DNA of 42,486 nt, from positions 1 through 42,486 of the IMG/VR virus record IMGVR_UViG_3300035199_001164, one strand, 5' to 3'. The stretch is from a virus. Below, one piece after another: positions 23,238 to 42,486 of this stretch (positions within the stretch are counted from its first letter, which is position 1; every line of letters begins with the position of its first letter). The position numbers and the translations under genes were made by a program. The notes under the pieces are model-generated. The model was given only the letters and a program-made list of their open reading frames with translations. It had not been told where the DNA came from and ran no database searches.

Positions 23238-23546
23238 TCAGGTGCCTCGCGTTGCCAGGATTCGCTCCGCTGCCGCCTTGATGGCGGGGATGATGTTCAT
23301 GGCGAGCAGGCCAATCAGGAATGCCACGCCGTTCTTCGACTCGGCGTCAGCTGGGAGACCGAAGTGCACGACCACCAGCTGGGTGGTGAAGATCGCGGAC
23401 AAGAAGCCGGTCAGCACCGCGGCGGCGGCTTGCTTGCGGGTCAGTCCCCGCAGGAACGACAACGAGAGGATGGCACCGGCGAAGCCGGCAATTGCGACGC
23501 TGTACTTCGCGAACAGCGCGCCTGCGGCGGTCGAGGTGGGCTCCAT
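23238..23546 (-). CDS. Probable holin
   Basis: A 102-residue protein with three likely membrane segments (about 17-32, 41-60 and 73-88) and a basic C-terminal end (KAAAERILATRGT). This is holin-like in length and topology. The ATG at 23546 has a GGAG ribosome site. It is the first protein gene of the late operon after the tRNA, while the endolysin and spanins lie 22 kb further down the same transcript. Which of the two small membrane proteins makes the lytic pore cannot be decided. Confidence 0.65.
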   Translation of the reverse strand: MEPTSTAAGALFAKYSVAIAGFAGAILSLSFLRGLTRKQAAAAVLTGFLSAIFTTQLVVVHFGLPADAESKNGVAFLIGLLAMNIIPAIKAAAERILATRGT

Positions 23547-23606
23547 CGAAATCTCCGAAGAAAAGGCCGCCAGCCGCTGGGGAGGAATGGGCAGGCGGCA
23601 GAAACG

Positions 23607-23631
23607 AAAAAGCCCAGCGTTGGGGCTGGGC
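23607..23631 (-). terminator. Intrinsic terminator after the phage tRNA
   Basis: Minus-strand stem gcccagc/gctgggc (arms 23625-23631 and 23612-23618) with a six-base loop, followed by T5 (23611-23607). It lies 9 bases after the tRNA and before the holin. The flanking gaaacgaaaaagccc (plus strand) is repeated at the terminator on the other side of the tRNA. Confidence 0.8.
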
Positions 23632-23639
23632 CTTGGAAT

Positions 23640-23716
23640 TGGTAGCGAGGGCTGGATTCGAACCAGCGATCTCCGGGTTATGAGCCCGGCGAGATGGACC
23701 ACTTCTCCACCCTGCG
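23640..23716 (-). tRNA. tRNA with CAU anticodon, initiator-like (tRNA-fMet)
   Basis: A 77-base cloverleaf with encoded CCA. The anticodon loop is CTCATAA (CAT), the T-arm GCTGG/TTCGAAT/CCAGC. Initiator features: three consecutive G:C pairs at the base of the anticodon stem (ccGGG/CCCgg), an unpaired first position (C1 facing U72) and an A11:U24 pair in the D-stem. The acceptor stem is weak: A4-C69 is a mismatch and G5-U68 a wobble. The gene is bracketed by two terminators and sits within the first 200 bases after the late promoter candidate. Confidence 0.88.
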
Positions 23717-23725
23717 CCTGAAACG

Positions 23726-23750
23726 AAAAAGCCCGGCTCAGTGGCCGGGC
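23726..23750 (-). terminator. Intrinsic terminator upstream of the phage tRNA (tR'-like)
   Basis: Minus-strand stem gcccggc/gccgggc (arms 23744-23750 and 23731-23737) with a six-base loop, followed by T5 (23730-23726). It lies about 45-70 bases downstream of the predicted late-promoter start, like lambda tR', and would stop late transcription unless an antiterminator acts. Confidence 0.8.
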
Positions 23751-23800
23751 TCTTCGTGGTCGGACGCTCACCTCAGAGCGCACCGAACCGCAGGTTAGAA

Positions 23801-23828
23801 ATTAACGCGGCAAGCCGGCAAAGGTCAA
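23801..23828 (-). promoter_or_regulatory. Candidate late promoter (pR'-like)
   Basis: On the minus strand TTGACC (23828-23823) and GTTAAT (23806-23801) are separated by 16 bases. It overlaps the stop codon of the gene at 23825-24397 and precedes the terminator - tRNA - terminator block and the 23.6-kb late operon. Confidence 0.6.
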
Positions 23829-24397
23829 GCCACTTCCTCTTGTTCCAGCAGGCCGGCCGCTTCAAGGATCGGCAGTGCTGCGTCGAAGGCGGCGGTCACC
23901 CGCCCCTCCAGCCACTTCACTGTCACCTGCCGCCAGTGCCGCAGGGTCCGCTCTGGCGTGCCGTCGTCGTCCCAACTGGAGATGTTGTAGAACGCTTCAG
24001 GCAGCCCCCGTCTGGAGGTCTTCACGCCGGCCTGCACACCCGGTTTCTTCGGAATGGCCCAGGCCGTCACGCACTTCGTCTTGAACAGGTGATGCGCCGG
24101 GCTGACGACGCGCGGGATCAACCACCGCACCGACTCAGCTACTTCTTGGTCGTTGATGCTGTACTTGGCCACCAGCGCGTGCCACAGCTCCGGCGCAAGA
24201 TCCCGGTGCAGCGTTGCCCGGGCCATGCTGTCCTGAGCCAGGCGCTCCTCTGGAGACAGCTCGAGCATGGAGCGGCGCCTGGGCTCCTGGAATCCCGCCT
24301 GGTAGCGCCGTTGCCACAGCTGCTTCGCCGTGCCGTCATTGGCTTCGATGCTCATGATCCGCGCAACCGCGGCTCCCACGTCGCGATATACCGTCAT
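23825..24397 (-). CDS. Unknown protein in the position of a Q-type late antiterminator
   Basis: A 190-residue protein starting MTVYRDVGAAVARIMSIEANDG. It is basic, mostly helical, with Trp-rich helices in the middle (ELWHALVAKYSINDQEVAE) and at the end (RHWRQVTVKWLEGRVTAAFDAAL). No zinc motif or known Q domain is visible. Its position - last gene before the late promoter and a promoter-proximal terminator - is that of the lambda Q gene, so an antiterminator role is an inference from context only. It overlaps the preceding gene by ATGA. Confidence 0.6.
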   Translation of the reverse strand: MTVYRDVGAAVARIMSIEANDGTAKQLWQRRYQAGFQEPRRRSMLELSPEERLAQDSMARATLHRDLAPELWHALVAKYSINDQEVAESVRWLIPRVVSPAHHLFKTKCVTAWAIPKKPGVQAGVKTSRRGLPEAFYNISSWDDDGTPERTLRHWRQVTVKWLEGRVTAAFDAALPILEAAGLLEQEEVA

Positions 24398-24944: not shown

Positions 24945-25654
24945 TGCCGTTCCCCCTTGGCCTGATGAAGGCCCCAATCGTTGAGACATACCGCCGACAG
25001 GAGGCCGCCAAAGCAGGCGCCGGTGTCGAGGTAGATGGTGTTTCCGAACTGGACGACGAGGTTGTGCGGGGTGTGGCCGACCACTACGGCCAGGGCACCC
25101 TCGACCACCTCATGGCTGCCGGCGCTGATGCGTTTTCGGCTCCACATGGCGGCTGCCTGCAGGTTGTTGTGGGAGCGCCGGCTGATCGGCAGTTCACCGC
25201 GAAGCTGGCGGCAGAACACCCGCCAGTCGTTCAGCGGGCACTCGACATGGACTACGCCCACCAGCCCCTGGGCGGTCGGGATCTCGATCGCCAGGGGCAA
25301 CTCGCGAAGCTGAACAGCGAACTCCTGCTGCTCGGCACTGGGCAGGCCGATGAACCACGCACCGCCGTTGTAGAGGTACATGTCACTGGAGAGGGCTTCG
25401 GCCGCGGCGTCGATCACCATCTGCTCGTGGTTGCCGCGCACGGCGAAGAACCAGGGCTTGGCCAACCACTCCAGCACCTGCTCACTCTCCGGACCACGGT
25501 CCACCAGGTCACCAGCGGCAATCAGCCGATCCGCGGCCTCGTCGAAATTCACCATGTCCAGCAGGCGGCGCAGCAGGCTGAAGCAGCCGTGGATATCGCC
25601 TACAACGAAGTCGCGGCCGGCAGTGTTCGGCGGCAAGGTAAGCACCAGACTCAT
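24941..25654 (-). CDS. Lambda-type Ser/Thr protein phosphatase (NinI-like)
   Basis: A 237-residue metallophosphatase. The three signature motifs appear in order: GDIHG (19-23), GDLVDRG (48-54) and RGNHE (73-77), with later His residues near 123 (VVHVE-type) and 190 (GHTPHN) for the metal centre. This is the pattern of lambda protein phosphatase and of NinI. The start at 25654 follows a GGGAGGG ribosome site and overlaps the recombinase stop by ATGA. Its role in phage growth is not established; in lambda the homologue is dispensable in the laboratory. Confidence 0.9.
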   Translation of the reverse strand: MSLVLTLPPNTAGRDFVVGDIHGCFSLLRRLLDMVNFDEAADRLIAAGDLVDRGPESEQVLEWLAKPWFFAVRGNHEQMVIDAAAEALSSDMYLYNGGAWFIGLPSAEQQEFAVQLRELPLAIEIPTAQGLVGVVHVECPLNDWRVFCRQLRGELPISRRSHNNLQAAAMWSRKRISAGSHEVVEGALAVVVGHTPHNLVVQFGNTIYLDTGACFGGLLSAVCLNDWGLHQAKGERQ

Positions 25655-26997
25655 GCTCGGCACCCTCCCTGCTGATCCGCCTCGTCGCCTTTCTGCAACC
25701 TCCACCCCTTTGGATGCGGAGAATCGCCAGAAGCCTTGTAGGTAGCGGGCGCGATGCCCTCGCCTGTTTCATGCGGACGCGAAAATGTCGCGCCGTGAAT
25801 CCGGCCAAATCCGTGGCTGTCTAGCTCGGCATGCCAGCGCTCCAGGGCCTCCCGTTTCTTCGCCTGGGCCTGGGTGTGGATGTACGCCGCCGCCACCCCG
25901 CGAATGGCATGGTTCAACAGCATCTCCCCGATCAGGTGATCCACCCCCAACTCGGTCCAGCAGGTCCGGGCCAGCTTGCGCAGGTCGTGGCTGGTCCAGT
26001 TGCCTTGGCCCAGGCGGACAAACACCTCGCTGGCCTGCTTCTCCGACATGGCCGAGCCGGGCGCTCCCGGGAACAGGAAGGCCGTCTCGATGCCTCGGGC
26101 GCGCTGCCATTCGCGGTGCGCGGTGAGCAGGGCCACGGCCTGGTCGGTCAGCGGCAGCTGGTGCTCGGCACGGGACTTGGCCTTCACGGCGGGGATGATC
26201 CACAGGCGCTCCTCCAGCAGCACATGCCGCCAGCGGGCTTGCCGCGTCTCACCAATGCGAGTGCCGTGGCAGAGCATCAGCAGGGCCAGCAGGGTGTCGC
26301 CGGGCGCCTCCTGGTGGCGCTTCACCAGCCCCTCCACCAGCACCGGCAGATCGAACGGACGCAGGCCCGGTTCGCGAGGCTGGATGCGCTCCTGCACGAA
26401 GTCGGTGAACTGCACCCCGTCCATGGGGTTCGCGGCGATCAGGTCCAGCCGCCGGGCCTGCCGTAGGGCGCTGGCCAGCACGCCATAGGCCTGGCGCACG
26501 TAGCTGACCGCGTACTGCTCCTGCAGGGGCCAGAACAGCAGGCGGTCGAGGGTCGCCTTGTTCGCCTCGAGCAACGCCAGGCACTCCACCCGGGGCAGCA
26601 GGTGGCAGGTGATCAGCGACTTCACCGAAGCCTTGCGCTTGGCCGACAGCGTGCGGTTGCGCAGGGCCCGATCCAAGTGCCACGCCAGCACCTCGCCGAG
26701 CGTGCCAAGGCCCTGGGCGGTGCCGGAGGCAGCAGGATCAGCCGTCAGCCGGGCTGTCACCTGCGGCAGCACGCCCAGGGCGCCCTTGGTGGTCAACCCG
26801 GGGAAGCGGCCCATCTTGTGCCACTTGCCGGCCAGCACCACATGCCAGGTGCCCCGGGAACGGTCCCTGCCGAAGCGAAAGCGCAGCGAGGGGTAGCGCA
26901 TGTCCCGCAGCTCGCGAACGTCGCCATTCGCCGCCTGGGCCCGAATCTGGGCGTCCGAGAGGTCGACGCGGACGGTACGCATCTTGGCCTCGGTCAT
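25651..26997 (-). CDS. Second tyrosine recombinase, inside the replication operon
   Basis: A 448-residue tyrosine recombinase with the catalytic set: Arg247 (CHGTRIGE), His337-x-x-Arg340 (SHDLRKLART), His363 (LNHAIRG) and nucleophile Tyr372 (AAYIHTQ), with Lys near 272-274. The N-terminal 75 residues, with GKWHKMGRFPGLTTKGA, look like a short Arm-binding domain of the DUF4102 kind, then a core-binding helical region. It is in mid-operon, translationally coupled to both neighbours (ATGA overlaps), far from the integration site and distinct from the integrase at 39780-40970. No recombination genes such as bet or recT are visible in the window. The substrate is unknown. Confidence 0.9.
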   Translation of the reverse strand: MTEAKMRTVRVDLSDAQIRAQAANGDVRELRDMRYPSLRFRFGRDRSRGTWHVVLAGKWHKMGRFPGLTTKGALGVLPQVTARLTADPAASGTAQGLGTLGEVLAWHLDRALRNRTLSAKRKASVKSLITCHLLPRVECLALLEANKATLDRLLFWPLQEQYAVSYVRQAYGVLASALRQARRLDLIAANPMDGVQFTDFVQERIQPREPGLRPFDLPVLVEGLVKRHQEAPGDTLLALLMLCHGTRIGETRQARWRHVLLEERLWIIPAVKAKSRAEHQLPLTDQAVALLTAHREWQRARGIETAFLFPGAPGSAMSEKQASEVFVRLGQGNWTSHDLRKLARTCWTELGVDHLIGEMLLNHAIRGVAAAYIHTQAQAKKREALERWHAELDSHGFGRIHGATFSRPHETGEGIAPATYKASGDSPHPKGWRLQKGDEADQQGGCRA

Positions 26998-29589: not shown

Positions 29590-30439
29590 CTTGGGCCTCC
29601 TGGTACATGTCGGGGGTATGGGTCGGGAGGTCGGTGAAGTTCGAGCGCTGGCCACTCGGCGGCGCGCTGGGCTGGGGGCCGAGGTAGGCCTTCCAGTGCT
29701 CGCCTTTGCCGAGGAAGGTCGCCGGCAGCTTCACGAACTCGGTGCCGACCTTGCCCTTGGCCACCTGGTCCTTGCGGTAGTTGATCGCGCCGGTGATCAG
29801 GTTCTGGGCGGATACCCCCTGCTTGAGGCGGGCCTTCCAGGCCTTCCAGGCATCCGGTTTGGAGGCAGCGCGTTCGCGCTTCGGGTACTCCTGCCAGAAC
29901 TCTTCGAACTCAGCCGAGTAGGGCGAGGAAGCCTTCTCGGTCGGCGCGACAGCGCCAGCCCCCTCGGGGGGTTGGGGGGCACTGGGATCAGGGATCAGAG
30001 AATCAGGAATCAGAAGATCAGGAATCAGAGAATCAGACCGAAGCGCTTCTTCCCTTGGCTGAAAGTCCTGTTCGCCTTGATTGTCCTGGCTTTCTCCGGT
30101 CGTTGTGCAGGCCTCCTCCATGGCCGGGATTTCGCTTGCAGCCTCGTTGTGATGAGGTCTCTGGTGTTTGGTGAAGCTGGCAATCTGGATGTATCGCTCT
30201 CCCTCGACTTCGTACCGAGTTAGAAAGCCCTTCTCACCAAGGCGAGAAAGCATTGCATCCACATCCGCAACCTCGTACGGAAGCGCTTCTGCCTTGATCC
30301 GCTTCGGACGATCCTCCAGACGCCCCTCACGGTCGGCCAGCATCCACAGATAGATGAACAACAGGCGCTCCAGCGGCGACAGTTCCGCCAGGTGCTCGTT
30401 GGCCATGATTCCGGGCTTGATGTTGCGCGCGCGGGCCAT
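29570..30439 (-). CDS. O-like replication initiator
   Basis: A 289-residue protein. The first 95 residues form a winged-helix-like domain (LSPLERLLFIYLWMLADREGRLED; CI-type helix DVDAMLSRLGEKGFLTRYEV), used by phage initiators to bind the origin. A linker rich in repeats (IPDSLIPD) is encoded by the iterons at 29984-30035, as in lambda O. The C-terminal part (about 170-289) with FEEFWQEYPKRERA is typical of DnaD/O-type replication proteins that contact the helicase. Overlaps the upstream gene by one base (TGATG) and the loader by 20 bases. Confidence 0.85.
   Translation of the reverse strand: MARARNIKPGIMANEHLAELSPLERLLFIYLWMLADREGRLEDRPKRIKAEALPYEVADVDAMLSRLGEKGFLTRYEVEGERYIQIASFTKHQRPHHNEAASEIPAMEEACTTTGESQDNQGEQDFQPREEALRSDSLIPDLLIPDSLIPDPSAPQPPEGAGAVAPTEKASSPYSAEFEEFWQEYPKRERAASKPDAWKAWKARLKQGVSAQNLITGAINYRKDQVAKGKVGTEFVKLPATFLGKGEHWKAYLGPQPSAPPSGQRSNFTDLPTHTPDMYQEAQDGRSDF
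29984..30035. repeat. Iterons inside the initiator gene, probable replication origin
   Basis: Three tandem 15-bp repeats, consensus ggaatcaga(g/a)(a/g)atca, at 29991-30005, 30006-30020 and 30021-30035, preceded by a 7-bp half copy at 29984-29990. Each has two half-repeats of the type g(g/a)(a/g)atca. They encode the (L/S)IPD repeats of the initiator. A lambda-type origin lies in this place in the O gene. Confidence 0.8.
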
Positions 30440-34335: not shown

Positions 34336-34354
34336 CCAGTCGCCTCAGAAACGA

Positions 34355-39624: not shown

Positions 39625-39900
39625 ATGCGCTACGTGACAGTCAGGAAATTCGCGAGCGAGTCGGGCTACACCGAAGATGCCATTCGCTCGAAGATCCGGG
39701 ACGGAGTCTGGAGGCAGGACGAAATATGGATCAGGGCTCCCGATGGGCGAACCCTGATTGACGTGAGAGGGTATGAATCATGGGTAGAGATGGGCGGGGA
39801 GTCCGTGCGGTCTCCGACTCGAGCATCGAGATCACGTTCATGTACCGCGGCGTTCGGTGCCGTGAGCGCATCGGGCTCAAGCCCACCGCCACTAATCTGA
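39625..39900 (+). CDS. Excisionase-like HTH protein
   Basis: A 91-residue protein whose first 55 residues (YVTVRKFASESGYTEDAIRSKIRDGVW) form a MerR/excisionase-type HTH, followed by a Ser/Arg-rich tail. It lies directly before the integrase gene and overlaps its start by 121 bases in another frame; such overlaps are usual for xis-int pairs. ATG 39613 (GAGG site) is an alternative start. The tail may be non-essential, but no stop precedes. Confidence 0.78.
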   Translation: MRYVTVRKFASESGYTEDAIRSKIRDGVWRQDEIWIRAPDGRTLIDVRGYESWVEMGGESVRSPTRASRSRSCTAAFGAVSASGSSPPPLI

Positions 39901-40970
39901 AGCGGGCTGAGCAGCACAAGGCTGCGGTGGAGCATGCCATCGCCGCCGGCACCTTCGACTATGCGGTGACCTTCCCAGGCTCGCCCAGGGCAGCGAAGTT
40001 CGCCCCCGAGGCAAACCGGGAAACCGTCTCTGGGTTCCTGACCAGGTGGCTGGCCGGGAAAAAGAAACACGTATCCAGCAGTACCTTCGAAGGCTACCGG
40101 AAGATCGTGGAGCAGCGCCTGGTTCCGAAGCTCGGCACCGTCATGGTCGTCGAGCTCAAGCGCAAGATGGTGCGCGACTGGCTCGACACTCTGGGGGTCA
40201 GCAACAAGACATTGACCAACATTCAGAGCTGCCTGCGATCCGCGCTGAACGACGCCGTGGACGAGGAGTTACTGGAGACGAACCCGCTTGCCGGCTGGAC
40301 CTATCTACGCAAGGAGGCGCCGCCGAAGGAGGACGATGTGGATCCGTTCTCCCCAGAGGAACAGCGCGCCATTCTCGACGTGCTTCACGGGCAGGCCCGC
40401 CACTTGGTTCAGTTCGCCTTCTGGTCCGGCATGCGCACCAGCGAGCTGGTCGCGCTGGACTGGGGGGATATCGACTGGATTCGTGGAGAGGTTCGCGTCT
40501 CGCGCGCAATGACGCAGGCCGCCAAGGGCACAGCTGAGGTGACCAAGACGGCCGCCGGTGCGCGCACGATCAAGCTGCTCGGCCCGGCCCTGACGGCACT
40601 GCAGGAGCAGAAGGCTCACACTTTCCTGGCAGGCAACGAGGTGTTCCAGAACCCACGCACAGGCGAGCGCTGGGCTGGCGACGGACCGATCCGGAAAACC
40701 ATGTGGGCGCCGGCGCTGAAGAAGGCCGGCGTGCGATACCGGCGACCGTACCAGACCCGCCACACCTTCGCCTCGATGATGCTCTCGGCCGGCGAGCACC
40801 CCATGTGGGTCGCCCAGCAAATGGGCCATGCCAATTGGGCCATGATTTCGCAGGTCTATGGCAAATGGATGCCCGCGGCGAATCTTGAAGCAGGTCAGAA
40901 GGCGGAGCAGCTATGGGCGAGCGGGAGTGCTGACGAAGCTCAATTGACATCTTCCAAAGCAGGCGGATAA
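39780..40970 (+). CDS. int: Phage integrase (tyrosine recombinase)
   Basis: A 396-residue integrase. N-terminal Arm domain of DUF3596 type (EITFMYRGVRCRERIGLKPT, about 16-36), core-binding helical domain (about 80-165), catalytic domain with Arg219 (SGMRTSEL), Lys256, Arg327 (YQTRHTF; Tyr324 replaces the first His), His350 (MGHANW) and Tyr360 (VYGKW). It faces the right prophage end at about 41957, and the excisionase candidate precedes it. It should insert the phage at the ssrA 3' end. Confidence 0.94.
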   Translation: MGRDGRGVRAVSDSSIEITFMYRGVRCRERIGLKPTATNLKRAEQHKAAVEHAIAAGTFDYAVTFPGSPRAAKFAPEANRETVSGFLTRWLAGKKKHVSSSTFEGYRKIVEQRLVPKLGTVMVVELKRKMVRDWLDTLGVSNKTLTNIQSCLRSALNDAVDEELLETNPLAGWTYLRKEAPPKEDDVDPFSPEEQRAILDVLHGQARHLVQFAFWSGMRTSELVALDWGDIDWIRGEVRVSRAMTQAAKGTAEVTKTAAGARTIKLLGPALTALQEQKAHTFLAGNEVFQNPRTGERWAGDGPIRKTMWAPALKKAGVRYRRPYQTRHTFASMMLSAGEHPMWVAQQMGHANWAMISQVYGKWMPAANLEAGQKAEQLWASGSADEAQLTSSKAGG

Positions 40971-41037: not shown

Positions 41038-41481
41038 ATGCCCAGCTCTATCGACGTGGCGAAATTTTTCCTCGCCCAATCCAATGAAGAGGCTGGCGAC
41101 CTTGTGTCCAACCTGAAAGTGCAGAAGCTCGTTTACTACGCACAAGGTTTCCATCTCGCTGTCTACGATCGCCCGTTATTTGACGATCAGATCGAGGCCT
41201 GGACACATGGTCCCGTGGTGCCGTCCGTTTACCACCATTACAAGCACCACGGCGCCGGCAGCATCCCTGTTCCTACTGACTTCGATCCAGCTATTTTCCA
41301 GCCTGAACAGATCGAGCTGCTGAACGAAGTGCAGCAGATCTATGGCCAATACTCTGCATGGCGTCTCCGTGAGATGACTCATGAAGAAGCTCCTTGGAAG
41401 AACAATTTCCGCGCCGGAGCAATGAGCCAGGCCATCCCGCACGAGGATATGCAGCACTTCTTTAAAGGCTTGCTGAAATAG
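41038..41481 (+). CDS. Panacea (DUF4065)-type antitoxin candidate
   Basis: A 147-residue protein, SIDVAKFFLAQSNEEAGDLVSNLKVQKLVYYAQGFHLAVYD at the start, then EAWTHGPVVPSVYHHYK. This is the DUF4065/SocA-type pattern (Panacea domain), often the antitoxin of two-gene systems. Strong AGGAGG-like site (aaggaggtc) seven bases upstream. It is the first gene of a cassette between integrase and attachment site, a usual place for cargo genes. The partner is the gene after it. Confidence 0.82.
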   Translation: MPSSIDVAKFFLAQSNEEAGDLVSNLKVQKLVYYAQGFHLAVYDRPLFDDQIEAWTHGPVVPSVYHHYKHHGAGSIPVPTDFDPAIFQPEQIELLNEVQQIYGQYSAWRLREMTHEEAPWKNNFRAGAMSQAIPHEDMQHFFKGLLK

Positions 41482-41903: not shown

Positions 41904-41956
41904 AATGACAGCCTTATGCCAGCCTCTGGCGTAGAACCCACGCCACTGCTGGCCAA

Positions 41957-41987
41957 GACGGGGGTTCAAATCCCCCCGGCTCCACCA
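41957..41987 (+). other. Right attachment site, 3' end of tmRNA (ssrA) gene
   Basis: The sequence is the T-arm (ggggg/ttcaaat/ccccc at 41960-41976), acceptor 3' strand cggctcc, discriminator A and CCA, fitting the 3' end of a tmRNA gene, including the U of the G3.U70 pair. No upstream tmRNA part is present, so this is the displaced 3' fragment, i.e. attR. The rest of the gene should lie left of the window. Confidence 0.8.
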
Positions 41988-42000
41988 AAAACAACGACTA

Positions 42001-42037
42001 AGCCCCTGATTTTCCTAGCGAATTTCAGGGGCTTTTT
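42001..42037 (+). terminator. Terminator after the ssrA 3' end
   Basis: Nine-bp stem agcccctga/tcaggggct (42001-42009, 42025-42033) followed by T5. It is probably the host tmRNA terminator left on the right of the prophage. Confidence 0.82.
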
Positions 42038-42114
42038 CGTTTCTGCCTGGATGTCTCGAAGAAGTGTCGAACATCGATGACCCTTCGGGTCGAAGCAAGG
42101 GTTTGCAAAGCTCC

Positions 42115-42486
42115 CTACTTCAGTTTCCCGTGCAAAAAAACCGCGCCTGCCGTTAGCGCAGCGGCACCAAGGCCTGTCGCGATCATCGCACCGATTCTCA
42201 TATTCCCTCGCTGAGTAGTTGTGGAACGCTCCCCACAATCACGGGCTTCCTTCTTCTGCCGCTTGTCCCCATTTTCCGCCATCTTCGCGTACCGCATCCG
42301 CTCTTCAGGGGAATCAGCATTCTTGATTGCCTCCTTCAAAGCTTCCATCAGTGCTTCTGAGGTGGCGGCACTTGCCTTCAATTCTTCCGCATCAACCTTT
42401 GCAGCGCTCTCCGATGCCTTTGAGATCCCCTCTAGGGCCTCCTTAACAACTTCATCGCTGACCTTCTCCGGCTTATAAGCTGTCAT
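42115..42486 (-). CDS. Host-side hypothetical membrane-anchored protein
   Basis: A 123-residue protein with an acidic, helical N-terminal part (DEVVKEALEGISKASESAAK), a charged middle (KMAENGDKRQKKEARDCGERS) and a C-terminal membrane helix (AMIATGLGAAALTAGAVFL, about 100-118) before a short HGKLK end. It could be a tail-anchored protein. It lies right of the attachment site, so it is probably chromosomal or belongs to another element in the same site. The start codon is the last three bases of the window. Confidence 0.65.
   Translation of the reverse strand: MTAYKPEKVSDEVVKEALEGISKASESAAKVDAEELKASAATSEALMEALKEAIKNADSPEERMRYAKMAENGDKRQKKEARDCGERSTTTQRGNMRIGAMIATGLGAAALTAGAVFLHGKLK

Follow-up and report, generated by a model that had tools for sequence, protein, structure and literature searches.

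Features of the locus

The window, which is the whole stretch of 42,486 nt that was analysed, derives from a temperate phage of the Pseudomonas type. Its features of interest comprise a group of adjacent elements read leftward, in which a single tRNA gene is flanked by two terminators between a predicted antiterminator gene and a holin-like gene, and a host terminator near the right end:

23825..24397, minus strand: predicted antiterminator gene of the Q21/AlpA type (phrog_3412, E 2.7e-58; predicted fold)
23799..23828, minus strand: predicted late promoter, whose -35 box TTGACC overlaps the TGA stop codon of that gene, with a -10 box of about TAATTT
23808..23822, minus strand: presumed antiterminator binding element, a direct repeat TTTGCCG/CTTGCCG with an 8-bp period between -35 and -10
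23720..23752, minus strand: terminator 1 (tR'-like), upstream of the tRNA, a hairpin of -17.7 kcal/mol with a T-tract (z -3.9)
23640..23716, minus strand: initiator-type tRNA-Met (CAU) by sequence, with encoded CCA (ARAGORN; Rfam 55 bits; 74/77 identical to the D3 tRNA-Met)
23601..23637, minus strand: terminator 2, directly downstream of the tRNA, -17.0 kcal/mol (z -4.4), present in the terminator scan
23238..23546, minus strand: holin-like gene, the first protein gene past the cassette (phrog_2359 holin, E 1.1e-20)
42002..42047, plus strand: host ssrA terminator with a GGGCTTTTTCGTTTCTGCC tail, adjoining the tmRNA 3' end at about 41957-41987

The tRNA gene and its initiator-type features

The gene at 23716-23640 (77 nt, minus strand, anticodon CAT at 23682-23680) is the sole tRNA gene located by ARAGORN within the window, is matched by Rfam RF00005 with 55 bits (E 2.8e-9), and has the sequence CGCAGGGTGGAGAAGTGGTCCATCTCGCCGGGCTCATAACCCGGAGATCGCTGGTTCGAATCCAGCCCTCGCTACCA. 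In its cloverleaf reading, the acceptor stem begins with C1 x U72, G2:C71, C3:G70, A4 x C69, and G5:U68, position 11 is paired as A11:U24, the lower anticodon stem consists of three G:C pairs (G29-31:C39-41), and the anticodon loop is CUCAUAA with U33. The traits for which a sequence-only reading had previously called this tRNA initiator-like, namely the CAU anticodon, the three G:C pairs, the unpaired C1, and A11:U24, are all present; the internal acceptor mismatch A4 x C69 was not singled out in that reading.

These traits were compared with the distinct tRNAs from all fetched loci, both viral and host. A broad initiator-type set was selected on the D-arm and the anticodon arm, with the 1:72 pair left out of the selection, and a non-pairing 1:72 was observed in 89 of 105 distinct initiator-type tRNAs versus 27 of 291 other tRNAs, C1 x U72 being the second most frequent type of mismatch in the initiator-type set. 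Among the register-checked initiator-type tRNAs, A:U occupies 11:24 in 101/101, a position that was partly fixed by the search patterns, while positions 2:71/3:70 are G:C/C:G in 94/101, as they are in the window copy. Judged by its sequence, the window tRNA is of the initiator type, and its identity elements suggest that it would be processed, charged, and formylated. The segment of the acceptor stem from 2:71 to 7:66 contains the A4 x C69 mismatch as well as G5:U68, and of the 101 distinct initiator-type tRNAs of viral or host origin, only 3 have an internal acceptor mismatch of any kind, the remaining 98 having none. Because of A4 x C69, the computed cloverleaf energy of the window tRNA is weaker than that of the D3 tRNA (-22.9 versus -27.8 kcal/mol), and the minimum-energy predicted fold differs from the cloverleaf in both. 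The rarity of the A4 x C69 pair makes an early stage of decay of the window tRNA possible.

Relation to the tRNA-Met of D3-type phages and to host initiator tRNAs

Related phages such as D3 have this gene as well, and it does not represent a new system. The same tRNA is located in the same place in the Pseudomonas phages D3, BUCT566, FBPa47, Haboob, and phPA-G, where it is labelled merely tRNA-Met; Haboob and phPA-G have a dissimilar upstream gene but retain terminator 1 and the tRNA. The window tRNA shares with these copies its location right behind the late promoter and terminator 1, C1 x U72, A73, and the encoded CCA, and both this position and an identity of at least 90% assign it to the D3 type. 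The window and D3 sequences are identical at 74 of 77 positions and differ by an extra D-loop C, U33 in place of C33, and C69 in place of U69 in the window copy, which gives A4 x C69 there versus A4:U69 in D3. In addition, the second terminator is intact in the window, whereas the D3 tRNA is followed by a decayed version of it, and no Gly-Asn-Thr tRNA cluster lies behind the window tRNA. The window copy is, by sequence, a sister variant of the D3-type copies, distinguished by U33. C33 was observed instead of U33 in all D3-group initiator tRNAs seen (for example, L003, L004, L005, L032, and L038), and it is absent from host copies and from the window tRNA. The view that C33 is unique to D3 initiators had to be softened, as several tRNAs from phage contigs that carry large tRNA arrays have it too.

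The sequence-only reading had recommended a comparison with the host fMet tRNA. The window tRNA and Pseudomonas-type host tRNA-fMet have CAU within an identical anticodon loop, three G:C pairs, A11:U24, G2:C71, C3:G70, and an unpaired 1:72 position in common. However, 61-65 of 79 aligned positions are identical and 14 to 18 differ, including C1 x U72 in the window versus C1 x A72 in the host, a weaker acceptor stem, an A13:U22 D-stem pair, the D-loop, and G57 in the T-loop. Close copies were not found in 299 Pseudomonadaceae-level genomes at E 1e-18, in a search run without a positive control.

The flanking terminators and their shared tail

The 15-bp sequence GAAACGAAAAAGCCC (plus strand) occurs exactly at 23601-23615 and 23720-23734, and both copies form the T-tracts of strong hairpins, which agrees with the earlier description of a direct repeat in two flanking terminators. 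The further description of these terminators as near-identical does not hold, since they are 78% alike over 37 nt when compared whole. Copies of GAAACGAAAAAGCCC with at most two mismatches number 5 in the window versus 0.04 expected, including an exact copy at 42029-42043, in the host ssrA terminator past the end of the prophage, and one with a single mismatch at 34348. The tail is common among terminators of these genomes; as it ends other terminators, one of them that of host ssrA, it is by itself no mark of mobility, and the 15-bp repeat was rejected as sole evidence for a mobile cassette. Most relatives have a terminator at the same distance as terminator 1. The gap between terminator 1 and the tRNA is shorter than 10 bases, and a generic promoter scan returned no sigma-70 consensus that could serve the tRNA cassette as its own promoter.

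The late promoter and the upstream gene

The upstream gene product belongs to phrog_3412, a family listed as of unknown function. Its AlphaFold model (pLDDT 80) has as its best PDB matches the AlpA-loaded and AlpA-loading complexes 7xyb_G and 7xya_G, both with probability 1.00 and with moderate scores (TM about 0.5, E 4e-3 and 1e-2, respectively), and one relative of the gene carries the annotation anti-termination. A Pfam scan of the protein yielded no useful match, and no sequence match to solved antiterminator structures was found. On the predicted fold, phrog_3412 is likely an antiterminator family of the Q21/AlpA type.

The overlap of the stop codon with the TTGA box is kept in most related loci, and the promoter itself is absent from the output of the generic promoter scan. 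Between -35 and -10, a repeat at offset 8 with at least 6/7 matches was detected in 22 of 27 distinct spacers, compared with 0 at the other offsets from 3 to 12, and shuffled spacers reached it in 0.5% of cases. The sequence of the repeat unit differs between phages; a clear 8-bp repeat is missing in Haboob and phPA-G. The binding element of phage 21 Q is likewise a direct repeat, of TGAGCA, between -35 and -10 (PMC6606751), and AlpA binds one site between -35 and -10 and subsequently continues past a terminator located further on (PMC9371919). The window locus resembles both in having its element between -35 and -10 and an intrinsic terminator just downstream, it resembles phage 21 further in the direct repeat with an 8-bp period, and the predicted fold of its upstream protein is moderately similar to AlpA; it differs from AlpA in having two sites at the promoter versus one 6-bp site. 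The predicted antiterminator fold and the phage-21-like direct repeat would together place the tRNA first behind an antiterminated late promoter. The proposal of the sequence-only reading that the tRNA is the first product of the late promoter is, by this analogy, well supported. In the initially transcribed region of related late promoters, where a -10-like pause element would be expected for the Q21/AlpA type, a conserved ACCT/ATCT stretch is also visible.

Contents of the slot behind terminator 1

The contents of the slot were surveyed across 80 viral loci that contain a relative of the upstream gene. It holds the initiator tRNA, a version of it with a CAC anticodon, a tRNA-Thr, a tRNA-Ser, an HNH gene, small ORFs, or nothing, and the content changes at least 12 times across the phylogeny of the upstream protein. 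Identical or near-identical upstream proteins are accompanied by different contents (the tRNA, nothing, the CAC version, or the HNH gene), and many relatives have no tRNA in the slot, a frequent absence that shows the tRNA to be dispensable. In the empty sites of the D3 group, the tRNA and the second terminator are missing together, with a clean junction inside the terminator tail. L022, whose upstream gene is the closest to that of the window (67%), carries only one terminator in the slot; how it matches the window further downstream was assessed by eye, the automatic alignment having left the gap unplaced.

A swappable cassette consisting of the tRNA and its terminator is supported by these sequence comparisons: the unit is missing in relatives that show a clean junction, and it brings its own terminator (terminator 2). 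A promoter of its own is lacking, as judged from the scan and from the short interval between terminator 1 and the tRNA. The earlier notion of a mobile cassette is consequently upheld by empty sites and exchanged contents and not by the 15-bp repeat.

Several relatives show more unusual contents than the window itself, these being the replacement by an HNH gene and the C33 and CAC variants, all of which lie outside the window. In L102, an initiator tRNA body with CAC for CAU is located 105-180 nt past the stop of the upstream gene; this anticodon would read GUG, and ARAGORN labels the gene tRNA-Val. An HNH gene takes the place of the initiator tRNA core in L101, L103, L106, L113, L117, L119, L121 (PMG1), and L123. 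In PMG1 and its relatives, this gene of 144 aa is flanked by the first 19 nt of the tRNA on one side and by its last 15 nt, including CCA, on the other, and it is possible that the retained first 19 nt supply its ribosome binding site. An intron was considered for these loci and rejected, the tRNA core being missing and not interrupted. The HNH protein belongs to phrog_2255, without a useful match in a Pfam scan, and has homologues in or beside the tRNA clusters of Myxococcus phage Mx1 and the mycobacteriophages ET08 and MS810. Its homologues are placed similarly to free-standing homing endonucleases beside phage tRNAs, such as SegB in T6 and HNH enzymes in tRNA clusters, but the PMG1-type gene replaces the tRNA core while keeping its ends; the window has no HNH gene.

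Proposed expression, benefit, and competing explanations

The locus is probably best explained as a phage-borne tRNA-fMet (CAU) that forms a swappable tRNA-terminator cassette in the first slot of an antiterminated late operon. Late transcription would start at the promoter that shares part of its -35 box with the stop codon of the Q21/AlpA-type antiterminator gene, and in the absence of the antiterminator, most transcripts would end at terminator 1, while terminator 2 would halt leaked transcripts ahead of the holin gene and so insulate the lysis genes. Upon induction, antiterminated polymerase would pass both terminators, and the tRNA would then be cut out of the late transcript in its 5' region. 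Antitermination activity, leakage, and benefit are inferred here. The benefit, which is the weakest step of the explanation, is most likely conditional, with extra initiator tRNA assisting the translation of late genes whenever the pool of the host runs short or is damaged; as the tRNA is dispensable and comes and goes, both a conditional advantage and a passenger are possible.

That the initiator tRNA hitch-hiked into the slot as a passenger, and that the window copy is now losing function, is a possible but rather doubtful explanation. It is consistent with the internal A4 x C69 mismatch and the weaker cloverleaf of the window tRNA, with the slots of D3 relatives that are often empty or have the core replaced by an HNH gene, and with the decayed second terminator of D3. 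The other identity elements and CCA are nevertheless intact in a copy so close to that of D3, A11:U24 and G2:C71/C3:G70 are as in the register-checked set (101/101 and 94/101, respectively), and an acceptor stem can still work with a single A x C pair. An anti-defence device, in which the tRNA would replace host initiator tRNA destroyed by nucleases such as VapC, is unlikely, and this function, suggested by the sequence-only reading, found no direct support. Phage tRNAs have been proposed to counter tRNA-targeting defences (PMC10264068), and supply by dosage has been shown for tRNA-Tyr against Septu (PMC13096335). A replacement of this type is still conceivable, since a higher dosage can be of use as well. 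The patchy, fast-turning distribution of the slot tRNA is compatible with such a role, and C33 in the anticodon loop of the D3 family, absent from host copies, would fit the idea of a loop mutation. The window loop CUCAUAA, in contrast, is that of the host initiator tRNA, therefore nuclease resistance via an anticodon-loop mutation is unsupported for the window copy and was rejected for it. Moreover, late expression fits an early rescue poorly, and a survey reports that tRNA-fMet genes are generally avoided by phages where this tRNA is a VapC target (PMC10264068), for which reason D3-type phages are a useful counter-case.

It is improbable that the slot carries initiator tRNAs selected to escape or alter initiation control, with the window phage at the host-like end of a series; if true, C33 in the D3 group and the CAC anticodon of L102, which could start at GUG, would belong to this series, and homing endonucleases would compete for the slot. 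The remark that many phage genes in the window start with GTG was found unconvincing, as about 19 of 32 likely leftward genes start with ATG even in a rough count from longest-ORF starts. A role as an RNA processing or insulating element heading the late transcript, with decoding secondary, would agree with the position directly after terminator 1, which is fixed in all carriers, but elements used in initiation only (the 1:72 mismatch and A11:U24) are kept and many relatives have no tRNA at that place, making it very improbable. A remnant of an attachment site, taken over as a piece of a host tRNA gene that served for integration, is scarcely credible and was rejected: a tyrosine integrase-like gene is present about 2 kb away (25651-26997), yet the tRNA gene is complete and diverges from host initiator tRNAs at the 14 to 18 aligned positions noted above, and the likely real site is the tmRNA 3' end near the second integrase (39780-40970).

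The gene annotated as a plain tRNA-Met in D3-type phages has the sequence of an initiator tRNA, is probably under late control, and occupies a slot of fast turnover, and the gain of temperate phages from an initiator tRNA of their own becomes directly testable. For phrog_3412, the predicted fold offers a likely function as an antiterminator of the Q21/AlpA type.

The downstream gene and the prophage boundary

The match of the holin-like gene to phrog_2359 spans residues 87-174 of a long ORF, for which a start at the ATG at 23546 is proposed; the longest-ORF start at 23783, which would read through the tRNA, is probably not the real one. At the right end (41940-42486), the tmRNA 3' end and the host ssrA terminator mark the prophage boundary. 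The right flank gave no match in 400 genomes at 1e-30, and a shorter query then assigned the host to the Pseudomonadaceae, the ssrA-terminator stretch matching a genome of this family with 89% (locus L246). Past this terminator, the window probably continues with host sequence or with the opposite side of the attachment site. Two tyrosine integrase-like genes are present, on the minus strand (25651-26997) and the plus strand (39780-40970), and only the second is near the likely attachment site. Also near an integrase gene, at 41038-41481 (plus strand), is a gene for an antitoxin-like protein with a SocA/Panacea domain (Pfam PF13274, E 5.5e-24). Within the replication initiator gene, a 15-bp unit is repeated three times in tandem at 29986-30036, possibly as an origin iteron.
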